From Aequorivita antarctica (GTDB lineage: Bacteria; Bacteroidota; Bacteroidia; Flavobacteriales; Flavobacteriaceae): a stretch of 64,000 nt of DNA. Position numbers and translations under genes: made by a program. Positions 2,011 through 9,401 of this stretch are shown here, one piece after another. The DNA lies in assembly GCF_007997155.1 (NCBI RefSeq), contig NZ_VORT01000002.1, positions 186,001 through 250,000 of the forward strand. The letters run 5' to 3'. The first letter of the stretch is position 1. Each line of letters opens with the position of its first letter. The notes below the pieces were generated by a model. That model was given only the letters and a program-made list of their open reading frames with translations. It was not told where the DNA came from and made no database searches.

Positions 2011-3249
2011 ATGAGCACTCTATTTCTTGGCAGCTGCGATCTTGGCAAAATTCCATTAGATCGCAAAAAGTATCTTTCTCCATACCACAAAGATGGTCTT
2101 ACAGCTTCGGCTGTTTCCTTTAGGGATGACGACAGGACCACTTGGCGTTCCTTTAGGCAGGAAAATGGAACTGAAGTGGCACAACTTCAACAATTTCTTT
2201 ATAAAGCAGGATTTATGCCCAGAGGAGTTGTTGATGGGGTTTTTGACTATGTAACCCAATCGGCTGCACGATTGTTTCAGGAATACGTTCGCACAATGGA
2301 TCCCGAAGGAGATAAAACTATGGTTCCTGACGGCATAGTTGGCAATGTAACGATGCAACACGTTCAAAGATGGAAAAACCAAGGAAAAGTAGCAGATTGG
2401 GGTAAATCATCTACAGCAAATCCAACAAAAGAATACAGTGATTGGATAAAGCTTCTCAATGAAGCCAAAGCGCATTACAAGTCCAATCCTGGGCCTATAA
2501 TGCAGGCTGTGAATGCACTTCCCAAAACATATTCAACCATCAAAGTAAACGATTGGAATTTTTCAACGGATAACATTCATTTAATTGGGATTCGCCGTAA
2601 ACAAGATACTGCAGCCGCCGTTCAGCGCGCCAACGACGACTTTTTTGTATTGCTTGTAAACGGAATGGTTTTCAAGTTTTGGGGCTCCACTGACCCAAGT
2701 AAAAACATGGTAAAAAACAACATCCCTCCATCGCTAGTGGAAGGACAGCACAAATATAGGTTTGGCTGGCACAAGATATCTGAAGAGCAGAAAATATATC
2801 GTGCATTAAAACCTTATGATTCGAACGGAGTAATAATTTTGCGGGATTTAGACAGAGACAATGCACTTACGGCTCATGATCTTACCGTTAAAGGCAATAA
2901 CAGCTTAGAGGTAAACAACAGCATCAATATTCATTGGTCGGGAATGGGGACTTCCAATTGGTCTGCTGGCTGCCAAGTAATTGCTGGAAAAAATTATATC
3001 AATAATAAAAACGAGTTAGTGGATTGTTCAAAATTTGCCTCTTCGGCTTACAGTGAACTCAATACCTCAGCACAAAAAACAAAAGGCGCCTATAATGTTT
3101 TGGCAGACCTGATTGTTTGTTATTCCAAGCCTGGTGTTGATTACGTTTTATACACTTTGGGTCGGGAAGAATCACTTAATCTCGACGCCAATTTCGGTTC
3201 AAATTATGCAACTGACGCCTTGAAGAAGATGAATCCCAGCGCGGTATAA
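2011..3249 (+). CDS. Peptidoglycan-binding protein with L,D-transpeptidase-like C-terminus
   Basis: The protein has 412 residues. Residues 54-120 look like a PG_binding_1 domain: a helical repeat with a DGxFDxxT core and a later PDGIVG. The C-terminal half ends in a conserved-looking INIHWSG...NWSAGCQVI segment (His308, Cys321). This recalls the His and SxGC active site of YkuD-type L,D-transpeptidases and the H...GCQ motif of phage-type wall-acting proteins; that assignment is by motif only. No signal peptide or lipobox is visible, so a cytoplasmic or specially exported protein is likely. It stands 119 bp upstream of the TIR gene on the same strand and probably belongs to that block. Its role as wall sensor or wall-damaging effector is inference. 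Confidence 0.6.
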   Translation: MSTLFLGSCDLGKIPLDRKKYLSPYHKDGLTASAVSFRDDDRTTWRSFRQENGTEVAQLQQFLYKAGFMPRGVVDGVFDYVTQSAARLFQEYVRTMDPEGDKTMVPDGIVGNVTMQHVQRWKNQGKVADWGKSSTANPTKEYSDWIKLLNEAKAHYKSNPGPIMQAVNALPKTYSTIKVNDWNFSTDNIHLIGIRRKQDTAAAVQRANDDFFVLLVNGMVFKFWGSTDPSKNMVKNNIPPSLVEGQHKYRFGWHKISEEQKIYRALKPYDSNGVIILRDLDRDNALTAHDLTVKGNNSLEVNNSINIHWSGMGTSNWSAGCQVIAGKNYINNKNELVDCSKFASSAYSELNTSAQKTKGAYNVLADLIVCYSKPGVDYVLYTLGREESLNLDANFGSNYATDALKKMNPSAV

Positions 3250-3285
3250 AAGCCTCCGTAAATTAGAAACTAGGTTAAGTAATTT

Positions 3286-3305
3286 ACTATATGTAAACAT
3301 ATAGT
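3286..3305. other. Hairpin between the wall-binding gene and the TIR gene
   Basis: A perfect 8-bp inverted repeat (3286-3293 with 3298-3305) has a TAAA loop. No T-run follows, so it is not a clear terminator. It could be an operator or an RNA processing site. Confidence 0.35.
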
Positions 3306-3368
3306 ATTCGTTAATTTTCAGTCATTTATTACTATATTGAAAATTATTTAGATTAAAAATAAAATCAG

Positions 3369-4886
3369 ATGGCGTTAATTCCAGGATATGAATACGATAT
3401 TTTCATTAGTTATGCACACGTAGATAATTTAGCTTTCCCAGGCCAGCTTGAGGGGTGGATAAAACAGTTTTACCAAAACCTTAATGTAATGCTCGCCAAA
3501 CGGTTTGGCAGAATGGATATGGTAAAAATATGGTGGGATAGTAAAAAACTGGACGGCAGCGTTCTTTTTGATGATTCTATTGAAGAAGGTATCAAGAAAT
3601 CTGCAATTATGATCTGCCTTAATTCCCCGGGGTATATTCAGTCTCCATATTGCAAGCAGGAATTGGATATATTCTATAAAAAATCACAATCTGAAAAAGC
3701 AGGGTTAAAAATAGCTAACCGTTCTCGCATTATCAATGTTCTTCTTAATAATATTCCGTTTTCACAATGGCCCGAAGAATTGGCTGGCACCAGTGGTTTT
3801 CCTTTTCACAATTCAAAAGAAAGCGAGGATTTTGGGAATACCCTAGAAATTATTTCGCCGGAGTTCATGATTGAAATGCAAAAATTAAAGGAAGCTCTTT
3901 GGAATATACTCACAGATTTTCAAAAAAATAGTAATGATGCTTTTGAGCCCGAGAAAATAGTTTCCGCAGATGGAAGTGATGTTTTCAAAGTATACCTCGC
4001 TGATGTTGTTGACACCTTGCGCACACCACGCAAGCGTATTGTCGCTGAACTTGAAAAAGAAGGGTGCCAAATTCTTGATGGAATTCCACCACCCTATGAA
4101 GAAGCCGCCCACGAAAAAACCACTAAAGACGCTATAGCGAAGTCTGATCTTGCGGTTCATTTGCTGGATCAATATCCAGGCCGTGAAATAGATGGTCTAT
4201 CAGATATTTGGTATCCGCAGAAACAGGCTGAGATTTGCTTGAATACTGATAAATCCCAAATGATTTGGGTGCCACAAGACTTGAATTCTGATGAAATAGA
4301 GGAAGAAAACTATAAAACCTTTTTGAATGAGGTTGAGGCTGGAAAAGTATCCAAAAAAGGATATGAGTTTATCCGAAGTTCAAAATGTACTATTGCAAAG
4401 GAAATAATTGATTTTGCAGAACAACTTAAAATAAAAAAGGCACAAGAAAAACACGATATAAAGACTCTTTCCGTTTTGCTGGACACACATTTAAATGACC
4501 AAATGTATGCCCTAAACCTAAGCAAAACTTTACTTGAAAATCAAATACAACCATTTATAAATCCACAAGAAGACGATCCCCGAAAAAACATCAACATGCT
4601 GGGAGACAGAATGTCACAAGTGAGAAAGTTGATATTTCTTTATGGCAATGTTTCCAAGGAATGGATGACGGAACGAATGAGTGCAGCTTTACAATTGGTA
4701 ATAACGAACAATTATCCCATAGATGATTTCTTTGTGTATATGGCTCCTCCACACAAAGAGGCAACCGATATTGTACTTAAACAAAGATTTCTGAAAATAA
4801 ATATTGTGGACAGCAGTAATAGCAAAATTATGGAGGGTGATGTAATTCAAAAGTTTTTAACCTCTCTAAAAGCTGGAGCGGCATGA
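3369..4886 (+). CDS. Protein with three TIR-like domains
   Basis: The protein has 505 residues. Domain 1 (about 1-175) is a TIR domain: YDIFISYAHVD at 9-19, and SPYCKQE ending in Glu98, the position of the catalytic glutamate in NAD-cleaving TIR enzymes. Domain 2 (about 205-350) starts KVYLADVVDTLRTPRKRI, a pattern like DUF4062 or degenerate TIR folds. Domain 3 (about 365-500) has the TIR-like core RKLIFLYGNVSKEW but no FISY motif or catalytic Glu. There is no signal peptide and no membrane segment. Its stop overlaps the start of the STAND ATPase by ATGA, so the two are translationally coupled. The family precedent is NAD+ hydrolysis or TIR-TIR signalling in defence. NADase activity is inferred only from Glu98 and its setting. 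Confidence 0.8.
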   Translation: MALIPGYEYDIFISYAHVDNLAFPGQLEGWIKQFYQNLNVMLAKRFGRMDMVKIWWDSKKLDGSVLFDDSIEEGIKKSAIMICLNSPGYIQSPYCKQELDIFYKKSQSEKAGLKIANRSRIINVLLNNIPFSQWPEELAGTSGFPFHNSKESEDFGNTLEIISPEFMIEMQKLKEALWNILTDFQKNSNDAFEPEKIVSADGSDVFKVYLADVVDTLRTPRKRIVAELEKEGCQILDGIPPPYEEAAHEKTTKDAIAKSDLAVHLLDQYPGREIDGLSDIWYPQKQAEICLNTDKSQMIWVPQDLNSDEIEEENYKTFLNEVEAGKVSKKGYEFIRSSKCTIAKEIIDFAEQLKIKKAQEKHDIKTLSVLLDTHLNDQMYALNLSKTLLENQIQPFINPQEDDPRKNINMLGDRMSQVRKLIFLYGNVSKEWMTERMSAALQLVITNNYPIDDFFVYMAPPHKEATDIVLKQRFLKINIVDSSNSKIMEGDVIQKFLTSLKAGAA

Positions 4887-7732
4887 AGACAGATAATCCC
4901 AATCCTTATGTAGGGCTTAGACCCTTCGATATTGATGAAGGTCTTTTGTTTTTTGGAAGAGCCCAACAAACCTTGGAGCTATTGCAACAACTTCACTTGC
5001 ACCATTTTGTAGCTGTAGTGGGCAGTTCCGGAAGTGGAAAATCATCGCTTTTGCGGGCTGGGCTTATTCCATTGTTGAAAGCAGGATACTTAGTTCAGAA
5101 TAGTGACCATTGGCTTGTGGCTATTATGAAGCCAGGACAAAACCCATTATATAACCTTTCTGAATCCTTGTTGTTACAAATAAACGCAAATGTTGACGAG
5201 CAAGAGGTTGAAGCTCTGGTGCAGGAAGTAAAGGAAAAAGGGGTAACGGCCATCTTGGAGTTGATTGAGCCCATTAAAAAAGAAAAGAATATTAATTTCT
5301 TTTTATTAGTAGATCAATTTGAAGAACTTTTCAGATTTGTTATGGATCAAAATAACAATGAAAGAAAAGATGAAGCCATTGATTTTGTGAACATTATGTT
5401 GGAGCTTTCACAACAAACTATAACAGCGTTCTATGTTATAATTACAATGCGATCCGACTTTATTGGCGATTGTACACAATTCTTTGGTCTTCCTGAGGCT
5501 ATGAATAAGAGTCAATATTTAGTACCACGTTTAAACCGTACCCAACTTAAAACAGTAATAGAAGGGCCTGCAAAACTCTACGGAGGTACGGTTAACCAAT
5601 CGCTAACATCAATACTTCTCAACGATTTAGGAAAAATAAAGGATGAATTACCCTTATTGCAACATGCTTTAATGCGCATGTGGGATTACAAAACGAGCAA
5701 TAGTAAAAGTGACGAATTGAGCCTTGAAGATTACGAAAGTATTGGCGGTATTGAAAATGCGCTCTCCAATCATGCAGACGAGGCTCTTGCAGGAATGGAT
5801 GATAAAGAAAGACATCTCACAAAAAAAATATTTCAGGCCCTTACAATTATTGATGAAAACGGACGTAAAACAAGACGCCCAGTCCTTTTAAGCCAATTGG
5901 TTTCCATTACAGGCGCAACTGAAAAAGAAGTGCTCCACAGCATTGAACAATTTATTAAGGATAAACGCGCATTTCTGATTATAAGCAAATCTGGAAATGA
6001 CAAAGTAATAGATATTTCACACGAAAGTTTAATACGCCAATGGAAAACCTTGAATGTCTGGGTGGACGAGGAAGCCGAAGCAGCCTATTATTATTTAAAT
6101 CTAGCTGACGCATGGCAACTTCACCAACAACAAAAAAAAGATTTTTTAACAGGAAGTGAATTACAACTTGCGCTAGAATGGCGTGATACATTTAAACCCG
6201 AAGCTCCTTGGGCAAATCGTTATAAAGAAGGATTTACAGAATGTATTGACTACCTAAACCGCAGTGAACAAGAACACAATCGGATTTTAGCTCTTGAAAA
6301 AGATAGAAGGCAAAAAAAACGTACGATGATGGGAGCAATTATGGGGCTCTTAGTTGTAATGTTGATAGGTGCCAGCGTTGGGATTTATTTTTTAGACAAA
6401 AGCAAAATTGACTTAAAGAAAAGAACAGAAGAAAAACTTATTGCCTACGACTCCTTAAACAAGCAACAAAAAATAATAGAAAACGCCCTTATTGAAACCC
6501 GTGCTGCAAAAGACGAAGCCGTGCCTTGGATAATCCGGGCAACTTGGCGAGCAGGGAATGACTATGATCCACCTGCAGCTTATGTTACTGGTATAAGAGG
6601 TATTATTGCTTATGGGGAACCCATCCTCAGTCTGGATAAAATGCAGTTTTTGTCACCCTTCAAAATTTTCAATAGTGGGCCACACGAATCACAATTCAAT
6701 TGGCATTCGGCTGATTTTGGACATTACAATCCAAATTTCGTAAAATGGATTTCGGAATATTTAATTCCTGGGGCAACAGATGAAATTTTTCGTAAAAACA
6801 CCCAGCATATTTATGAACAACACCTGTCATTGTTGGCCCGCGCCTATAGTCTTAGCTACAAAGCGTGGAAATTAGATTCAGTTACAATGGAGCAAGAAAA
6901 AACTTCCTATTTGGAACATCTCAGTCATGGAGACTTTCAAAAAAACTATTTTATGGGAGATGTTTATTCAGCATATTCCTATGCTACGGAATACAAAAAA
7001 CCGGGACTTTTGGCCGCTTATGCACACGTTGCTGCTGGATTTTGGGTACGAAGGGAGATAGATGGAACCGCAGATGAATTTATGATGGCCTTGGAAAAAT
7101 TAATTAAGACCTATGATCGTCCTCTTCATAAAGAATATCAAGAACTTTCAACCCCTTTTTCACGCACGCTTGAAGATGCCTTGATAGGTATATGGAAGCT
7201 TGGCGATTTCAAAAAAGAATATCGAAGGTTTGCCACTTTCAAAAAGAATGGTGATTTATCGATTCGTGATGGAAACGAAATTACACAGCATACATGGAAA
7301 TTTGTTAACCCAAGTACACTTCTCATTGACGGAAAAGAAGTTTCCGTTTCCACTTATGTAGGCACAATAATGATAGAAGGACTGGATGGAACTGGTAAAA
7401 GCACTCGTTTTAATAGAATGTATCCTCAGCAATCACTTTCTGAATATGACAAGGAAATGGGAGAAGTTGATGCATTCAATGCCTTAAAAGTTGTTACGAC
7501 CATTGGGACATTTCAATGCAACTATGAAGGAAAATGGGTTGGCCCAAAGGAGAATGGGCAATCAACAAATTATGAGCAAATGGGGAGATCAAGTATGGGC
7601 ATATATTTATACAATAAAACAGAAGATATCGATGTGTTTTTGAATTTCTACAATAACCAAGTATTGTTTTCAAAAGATAAAGTGCAAGGTAAATACACTG
7701 GAAATATTATGGGAAAAATAAGATATGATTAA
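4883..7732 (+). CDS. nSTAND1-type ATPase with transmembrane segment and non-WD40 C-terminus
   Basis: The protein has 949 residues. It begins with the nSTAND1 signature NPYVGLRPF (7-15) and FFGR (23-26), Walker A GSSGSGKSS (47-55) and Walker B LLVDQFEELF (141-150). A winged-helix-like region follows to about 400 (HESLIRQW at 380-387). One transmembrane helix lies at about 483-504 and a short coiled segment at 508-545. The C-terminal 400 residues are not the WD40 repeats often seen in this family. They contain a helical region (about 545-760) and a lipocalin-like beta region (about 765-850), so the sensor half appears to lie across the membrane. It is translationally coupled to the TIR protein by an ATGA overlap. 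STAND ATPases act as ligand-triggered switches, so it probably senses a signal and activates the TIR partner. Confidence 0.8.
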   Translation: MKTDNPNPYVGLRPFDIDEGLLFFGRAQQTLELLQQLHLHHFVAVVGSSGSGKSSLLRAGLIPLLKAGYLVQNSDHWLVAIMKPGQNPLYNLSESLLLQINANVDEQEVEALVQEVKEKGVTAILELIEPIKKEKNINFFLLVDQFEELFRFVMDQNNNERKDEAIDFVNIMLELSQQTITAFYVIITMRSDFIGDCTQFFGLPEAMNKSQYLVPRLNRTQLKTVIEGPAKLYGGTVNQSLTSILLNDLGKIKDELPLLQHALMRMWDYKTSNSKSDELSLEDYESIGGIENALSNHADEALAGMDDKERHLTKKIFQALTIIDENGRKTRRPVLLSQLVSITGATEKEVLHSIEQFIKDKRAFLIISKSGNDKVIDISHESLIRQWKTLNVWVDEEAEAAYYYLNLADAWQLHQQQKKDFLTGSELQLALEWRDTFKPEAPWANRYKEGFTECIDYLNRSEQEHNRILALEKDRRQKKRTMMGAIMGLLVVMLIGASVGIYFLDKSKIDLKKRTEEKLIAYDSLNKQQKIIENALIETRAAKDEAVPWIIRATWRAGNDYDPPAAYVTGIRGIIAYGEPILSLDKMQFLSPFKIFNSGPHESQFNWHSADFGHYNPNFVKWISEYLIPGATDEIFRKNTQHIYEQHLSLLARAYSLSYKAWKLDSVTMEQEKTSYLEHLSHGDFQKNYFMGDVYSAYSYATEYKKPGLLAAYAHVAAGFWVRREIDGTADEFMMALEKLIKTYDRPLHKEYQELSTPFSRTLEDALIGIWKLGDFKKEYRRFATFKKNGDLSIRDGNEITQHTWKFVNPSTLLIDGKEVSVSTYVGTIMIEGLDGTGKSTRFNRMYPQQSLSEYDKEMGEVDAFNALKVVTTIGTFQCNYEGKWVGPKENGQSTNYEQMGRSSMGIYLYNKTEDIDVFLNFYNNQVLFSKDKVQGKYTGNIMGKIRYD

Positions 7733-7943
7733 TTATCGAAATAATCGGGGGTAAAAGTATCAGAGCTATTATTGCTTCATGACTTTCCATTAGCCGAATC
7801 GCTAATCATCTGGTCAATATTATCATTTTCCAAGAATGCCAGAATACTTTACTATATAGGAAGCCGTGCGGCAGATATAATTATAATATAAAGCCTCGAA
7901 GAATCAATAAGTACATAAATGTGCGTTATTGGGCTTGAAACGC

Positions 7944-9315: not shown

Positions 9316-9401
9316 GAGTTAGGGTTCTCCATCTAGGCTGAAAAAGTTTCGAAGGATAAGAGTGGTCATAAATCAAAAATTTAATAATAATAAACAATAA
9401 A

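Follow-up and report, generated by a model that had tools for sequence, protein, structure and literature searches.

The window analysed here is a stretch of 64,000 nucleotides from the marine bacterium Aequorivita antarctica (NCBI RefSeq assembly GCF_007997155.1, contig NZ_VORT01000002.1, positions 186,001 to 250,000 of the forward strand), and its positions 2011–7732 hold three consecutive genes for a lysin-like wall-binding protein, a TIR protein and an nSTAND1 ATPase. An earlier note, made from the letters alone, had proposed the three as a candidate conflict system; its observations were confirmed and its interpretation was partly supported. All three open reading frames (ORFs) were found on the + strand as described, and the TIR and nSTAND1 genes do overlap as ATGA (4883–4886). 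The features are as follows.

2011..3249, + strand: gene of the lysin-like protein ("PGB"), 412 amino acids, with a conserved N-terminal stretch, PG_binding_1 and a phrog_3000-type domain
2164..2283, + strand: PG_binding_1 domain, residues 52–91 (Pfam E 2.9e-7; matched by 19/19 homologues at E<=1)
2569..2991, + strand: putative catalytic domain of phage type, residues 187–327
2932..2973, + strand: His308...Ser318-Ala-Gly-Cys321, candidate active site, invariant in 19/19 homologues
3250..7890, + strand: segment that five other Aequorivita lack between their lysin and DEAD-helicase genes
about 3285..3306, + strand: AT-rich hairpin of 9 bp in the gap before the TIR gene (folding z -2.4; 2/200 shuffles did as well)
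3369..4886, + strand: TIR protein gene, 505 amino acids, AlphaFold model with three beta/alpha domains
3660..3662, + strand: Glu98 codon of the TIR domain, invariant in 72/72 aligned sequences, the window's included
4883..7732, + strand: nSTAND1 ATPase gene, 949 amino acids, with a membrane helix and a C-terminal extension
6338..6397, + strand: transmembrane helix of nSTAND1, about residues 486–505, by hydropathy
6443..7729, + strand: variable C-terminal region of nSTAND1, probably extracytoplasmic; blastp against 80 TIR loci (see below) matched only Ulvibacter

Relatives of the TIR protein were identified by an alignment-based scan, the single sequence having found none when used as the query. 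A profile of six TIR relatives recovered 202 relatives in one species-genome scan, and the analysis used the best 80 loci. Of these, 76 yielded a TIR ORF, and an nSTAND1 gene lay downstream on the same strand at <=460 bp in 66, mostly overlapping or a few bases off. In the other loci with a TIR ORF the nSTAND1 was fused or overlapped more deeply (4), the contig ended too early (4) or nSTAND1 was undetected (2). Judged by record title, Bacteroidota, Calditrichota, Acidobacteriota, Cyanobacteria, Verrucomicrobiota, Proteobacteria and Nitrospirota are among the 80 loci. TIR and nSTAND1 (hereafter also TIR-STAND) are a widespread gene pair conserved across phyla, and together with the conflict-type genes found beside it this upholds the earlier view of TIR plus STAND as a conflict-type pair. 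Among the best 80 of the 202, the closest TIR relative was from Mariniphaga (65%), followed by Ulvibacter, Robiginitalea and Arenibacter (55–61% to the window's TIR).

The TIR protein matched Pfam TIR_2 (E 1.8e-12), and its AlphaFold model was good (mean pLDDT 89), with three beta/alpha domains in succession. The earlier description of a "triple TIR" protein needs correcting: of these three domains only the N-terminal one is recognised as TIR, domains 2 and 3 having been viewed only within the whole model. Foldseek matches to the model included the TIR domains of RPP1, RUN1, MAL and SPARTA (plant, animal and SPARTA), PADLOC matches to the protein were weak (ThsB, E 1.3e-4), and no Avs model was among the PADLOC matches of either the TIR or the STAND protein. 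Glu98, which the note had singled out, is invariant as listed above, and we take it to be catalytic, as in other TIR domains.

The identity of the third protein as an nSTAND1 ATPase was borne out by Pfam (PF20703, E 3.4e-97, residues 8–420), with a Walker A motif read as GSSGSGKSS; no TPR family was matched in it (Pfam, E<=1). A membrane helix follows the STAND core in 53/66 relatives by hydropathy, and in 48 of these 53 lysine and arginine residues are commoner before the helix than after it, a bias that points to a cytosolic ATPase with its C-terminus outside. The C-terminal regions vary: Robiginitalea and some other STAND proteins have a different, shorter one in common, and in one metagenome-assembled genome this part carries repeats resembling WD40 by eye.

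The immediate neighbours of the pair (n=122) included SLATT (8), TPR-S (7), TrkA_N (10) and caspase family proteins (3), and none of these four was among the 25/98 families listed for 71 control genes five genes away. Against 0/71 controls the enrichment gave p values of 0.028 (SLATT), 0.048 (TPR-S) and 0.014 (TrkA_N); allowing a single control match (1/71) these became 0.16, 0.26 and 0.06. Single SLATT, caspase, patatin and lysin queries, run by blastp, found no match among the 71 control genes. Since 25/98 control families were listed and the loci are not independent, the enrichment of conflict-type genes around TIR-STAND is suggestive only and not firm. Patatin relatives occur in the flanks of 4/80 TIR loci. 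RyR was matched in 3/122 neighbour proteins, and TrkA_N/RyR was tentatively placed at L057, L061, L067, L073, L085 and similar loci from gene size and position. A phage- or plasmid-borne system was considered and rejected, as viral-contig pattern scans gave no relative and the lysin was unmatched in phages and plasmids; partial TIR matches were present in two plasmids, with nothing fuller.

The first gene had been described as peptidoglycan-binding and L,D-transpeptidase-like. The first half of this description stood, with the PG_binding_1 match listed above, and the second did not: YkuD/L,D-transpeptidase was not among the 8 Pfam families matched by the 19 homologues at E<=1, and the resemblance of His...SxGC to those enzymes is our presumption. 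Instead, residues 203–347 matched phrog_3000 (function unknown; E 1.2e-7), and the peptidoglycan-binding part matched endolysin phrogs. A stand-alone relative is found in genome G567, on a contig that resembles a mobile element by eye, and this protein has relatives in 26 phage records, crAss-like phages included. The endolysin family phrog_33083 was matched by 3/3 phage-type proteins tested, the His and SAGCQV residues are invariant in 5/5 phage-type relatives too, and hhalign of the lysin family against phage-type proteins gave a probability of 98.3 (E 2e-14, 36% identity over 125 columns). In four phages the gene lies upstream of the terminase gene (2), among tail genes (1) or near the record end (1). 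On these profile comparisons, the second domain of the lysin-like protein is homologous to phrog_3000 and endolysin phrog_33083 proteins. "Lysin" is used here as a putative name, peptidoglycan cleavage being predicted from homology. Such homology would fit the absence of an evident signal peptide, which the earlier note had pointed out: no hydrophobic leader was apparent when the sequence was inspected by eye (no signal-peptide program was used), and a TAA at 1993–1995 leaves the gene without an in-frame start farther upstream.

The 119-nt gap and the hairpin between the lysin-like and TIR genes, to which the note had drawn attention, were both found. A consensus scan with rates near chance listed no terminator-like site on the + strand in this gap and one promoter-like site, at 3337–3365. 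Alignments with five other Aequorivita end at 3236–3250 and restart at 7888–7907, so that, judged from these breakpoints, TIR-STAND appears to have been inserted at 3250..7890, behind the window's lysin gene.

Co-occurrence was scored in 28 Aequorivita genomes, with the presence of TIR-STAND judged by TIR. Lysin was present in 9/28 and TIR-STAND in 8/28 (7 genomes have both, 2 the lysin alone, 1 TIR alone and 18 neither; Fisher p 2.2e-4, or 6.1e-4 without A. antarctica's own genome). The EF-G2 gene beside the locus lacks a close match in several genomes, and the other EF-G paralogue was used as the species marker; the resulting tree holds 27/28 genomes, G411 having no full-length match among the matches listed. 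Double-positive genomes are scattered in this tree, which includes five sister pairs where one member has both genes and the other neither, and a dependent model of evolution outperformed an independent one (likelihood ratio 15.5, 4 degrees of freedom, p 0.004).

The loci share a backbone, with small variations, of EF-G2, SDR, a RadD-like helicase (HEL), slot A, a DEAD helicase, slot B, EamA and ADH. The window carries a TIR-STAND of about 4.6 kb in slot A, behind the lysin gene, while G397, G398, G402 and G414 carry the lysin gene in slot A and a divergent TIR-STAND in slot B, in reverse orientation, whose TIR is ~42% identical to the window's. G413 has its lysin and STAND genes at this locus, with the TIR gene on a different contig; G416 has TIR-STAND beside EamA, 390 kb from the lysin. 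Both slots are empty in 7 of the 8 lysin/TIR-negative genomes examined (8 of the 18 negatives were easily located by EF-G2); in the eighth, G409, the DEAD gene is missing from the fetched stretch. The window's TIR-STAND is a different subtype from the slot-B pairs, with a C-terminal region closest to that of Ulvibacter, and its lysin is of the Aequorivita type (92% identical to that of G413, 72% to that of Ulvibacter); the lysin is therefore associated with two TIR-STAND subtypes. Positions 9316–9401 of the window are the empty slot between the DEAD-helicase and EamA genes, where several relatives have the other TIR-STAND subtype.

These patterns could also arise by hitch-hiking, if HEL–EamA is a recombination hotspot, TIR-STAND is self-sufficient and the lysin-like gene is an unrelated accessory that uses the same flanks. 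In the HEL tree A. antarctica's own genome groups with G413, whereas its sister in the EF-G tree is G409; this conflict means that the locus recombines, and recombination could carry both pieces together. Lysin is kept without a TIR hit in 2/9 lysin genomes (G406 and G400, the ORF of the latter being near full length at 406 amino acids), and TIR-STAND is present without lysin in G417. In addition, lysin relatives flank only 4/80 TIR loci (Ulvibacter and three Aequorivita), and the neighbour enrichment around TIR-STAND is not firm. Against this, lysin and TIR-STAND occupy separate slots on either side of a conserved helicase gene, both are present though unlinked in G416, and in another genus, Ulvibacter, the lysin gene lies on the same strand 12 bp downstream of the STAND gene, with lipoprotein and FAD oxidoreductase genes nearby as at the CHAT-type lysin loci described below. 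We consider hitch-hiking rather unlikely.

Beyond the genus, strong lysin relatives were found in 17/397 genomes of the family (an 18th match was weak) and full-length TIR relatives in 6/299. The lysin gene adjoins a giant CHAT protein (1780–1859 amino acids) in 9 of the 15 other family loci, those with no TIR relative nearby, 7 times on the same strand with the giant 3–12 bp upstream; CHAT was identified by Pfam in three of the nine giants, and the others are 63–81% identical to one of these. In G289 it adjoins a patatin gene, and genes for caspase, SLATT-like, SIR2-TIR and nSTAND1 proteins lie close by; in G240 and G377 it adjoins an endonuclease-phosphatase gene, and patatin or Tle1-like genes lie close by. 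No evident partner was found in G039, G190 or G329 (the last in two pieces). Two of the 15 loci hold distant nSTAND1 proteins, and overall 12/15 have other conflict-type genes next to them or no more than a few kb away. Genes for an FAD oxidoreductase and a lipoprotein-like protein occur in 7/15 (about 7 kb off in G240) as well as at the Ulvibacter TIR-STAND locus. A sample of the phylum yielded near-full-length lysin relatives in 3/395 genomes, two of them already known. From these gene neighbourhoods, the lysin looks like an interchangeable component of conflict systems. The pair of lipoprotein-like and FAD oxidoreductase genes, of unknown role, accompanies the lysin gene at L124-L127, L129, L130, L133 and L018. 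A. antarctica's own genome also has a lone CHAT giant of 1827 amino acids (L164:4952-10435, G000:C2) with no lysin gene adjacent, 32% identical to the lysin-adjacent giant of other genera.

The earlier note had suggested that the wall, or a wall-borne phage signal, might be the trigger, i.e. that the wall-binding protein detects wall damage or such a signal and sets off TIR-STAND. The protein does have a peptidoglycan-binding domain and adjoins the pair in two genera. Yet its active-site-like residues are invariant, its domain is of phage lysin type, its gene also sits beside unrelated CHAT/caspase modules, and, with no export signal evident, a sensor of this kind would have no contact with the wall while the cell is intact. 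We regard it as quite improbable; given the protein's resemblance to a phage lysin, the wall would more probably be a target than a trigger.

A connection to extracellular contractile injection systems (eCIS) was also weighed, in which the lysin-like protein would be a cargo or a producer-lysis factor and the TIR-STAND/CHAT modules would guard or time release. In G209 an eCIS operon comes after a CHAT-lysin-patatin array on the same strand, the sheath gene lying about 7 kb from the lysin; in G013 an eCIS begins about 15 kb from the lysin; the Arenibacter TIR-STAND pair is downstream of eCIS_core and tape-measure genes; and the lack of an evident signal peptide would suit such a role. On the other hand, a sheath gene was found in 26/32 genomes tested, including 8/8 lysin-free Aequorivita, and in A. 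antarctica's own genome it lies on a different contig (C66) from the window locus (C22), while eCIS_core was found in 6/17 lysin genomes and not in this one. We judge this explanation improbable. An effector delivered by a type VI secretion system was rejected, VipB being found in 0/17 lysin genomes, although a divergent Bacteroidota system might escape the model. Loci with lysin/CHAT/patatin or TIR-STAND beside eCIS operons were seen in three flavobacteria (L248-L251, L028).

The arrangement can be compared with several known systems. Thoeris, AVAST and TIR-NLR anti-phage systems are alike in using TIR NADase or STAND sensor logic. In AVAST (Avs) the effector forms the N-terminal part of a STAND protein that has a TPR sensor; here TIR is a separate gene, and TPR and Avs went unmatched as reported above. 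The phage proteins of phrog_3000 and phrog_33083 resemble the lysin in their putative catalytic domain with the His and SAGCQV motif; unlike them, it is chromosomal, fused to PG_binding_1 and a conserved N-terminus, and found in conflict-type loci. EAD was not among the Pfam matches (E<=1) of the three window proteins, Pfam's cover of EADs being unchecked. Literature searches brought up no paper describing a TIR-nSTAND1-lysin system, although this does not prove that none exists.

Kaur et al. (eLife 2020, PMC7159879) propose that lysozyme- and papain-like domains of EAD1 systems attack peptidoglycan, and also propose wall-associating domains in iSTAND systems; STAND ATPases with TIR, caspase and trypsin effectors are described by Kaur, Burroughs, Iyer and Aravind (PMC7159879; eLife 2021, PMC8195603), the later paper naming nSTAND1. 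Those systems and the present one share a STAND ATPase and a TIR effector, but here TIR is a separate gene and the wall-acting partner a separate homologue of phage-type lysins. LypABC of Caulobacter, a CARD-NLR-like system that controls cell lysis using peptidases, is alike in its NLR/STAND-type immune module, which serves there as a lysis control hub; its authors found canonical holin-endolysin genes absent from the LypABC genome (PMC13236601), whereas here the partners are TIR and an endolysin-like protein. Finally, nuclease-protease pairs recur in Hachiman, AVAST and canu loci (PMC12799240). There, one effector module is found in immune systems unrelated to each other, and the lysin seems to recur here in a similar way; the module there is a protease-gated nuclease, here a putative lysin.

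Taken together, we give an even chance to a reading in which TIR-nSTAND1 is a two-protein, membrane-anchored immune receptor and the lysin a shared, host-encoded second effector. The STAND ATPase would sense an infection-linked cue via its variable C-terminal part, oligomerise on ATP and gather the separate TIR protein, whose Glu98 domain would then destroy or convert NAD+. The signal-less, phage-type lysin would wait in the cytosol and, after a breach of the membrane, cut the wall, so that the dying cell lyses; different lineages would combine it with TIR-STAND, with CHAT/caspase proteases or with other conflict modules. What the data show is the gene pairing, the invariance of catalytic-type residues, the lysin's homology to phage proteins and the co-occurrence; sensing, NAD+ loss, lysis, the coupling of the parts and the sequence of events are inferred from these. 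For this mechanism NLR-type control of lysis has a published precedent in LypABC, and wall-attacking effectors have one in Kaur et al. 2020.

In addition to the points listed under hitch-hiking, several observations weigh against this receptor-and-lysin reading. In the family, co-occurrence is weak, with both genes together in 2 of 299 genomes (p 0.024, or 0.19 without A. antarctica's own genome; the test takes the 299 TIR-searched genomes as contained in the 397, judged by genome number), and 15/17 lysin loci have no TIR relative within about 20 kb (judged likewise, a genome-wide TIR search covers 11 of these 15 genomes). The proposed link of the wall-binding gene to the pair finds support in the co-occurrence within the genus and in the Ulvibacter arrangement; at family level the gene usually occurs without the pair, the outcome that the earlier note had named as a refutation. 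The Mariniphaga locus has a patatin gene in its flanks and no lysin match. The 26 phage records list the lysin relative as "hypothetical" (23), as "peptidoglycan-binding domain 1 protein" (1) or with no annotation (2), and an annotated lysis cassette surrounds it in 0/4 phages examined. The AlphaFold model of the lysin-like protein (5 sequences) was poor and was left unused; with a pLDDT of only 37, the fold is unverified. The lysine/arginine bias around the helix is nearly even in the window's own STAND protein, and no small membrane (holin-like) gene was seen by eye in 2011–7732.

This analysis describes a cross-phylum TIR-nSTAND1 pair with varied neighbours (SLATT, TrkA_N proteins, patatin and lysin), and with this pair it becomes testable why STAND immunity is so frequently located at the membrane. 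More tentatively, a phage-type lysin could have been taken over by flavobacteria as a shared executioner for unrelated immune switches (TIR-nSTAND1, CHAT giants and caspase/patatin arrays). The immune decision would in that case lead to programmed lysis of the wall, which might also release contractile injection particles, instead of to silent NAD+ starvation; we consider this fairly unlikely. If true, hosts would reuse the lysis chemistry of phages as an immune effector, one lysin would serve several unrelated bacterial immune receptors, and some bacteria may have coupled lysis of the cell to their immunity.

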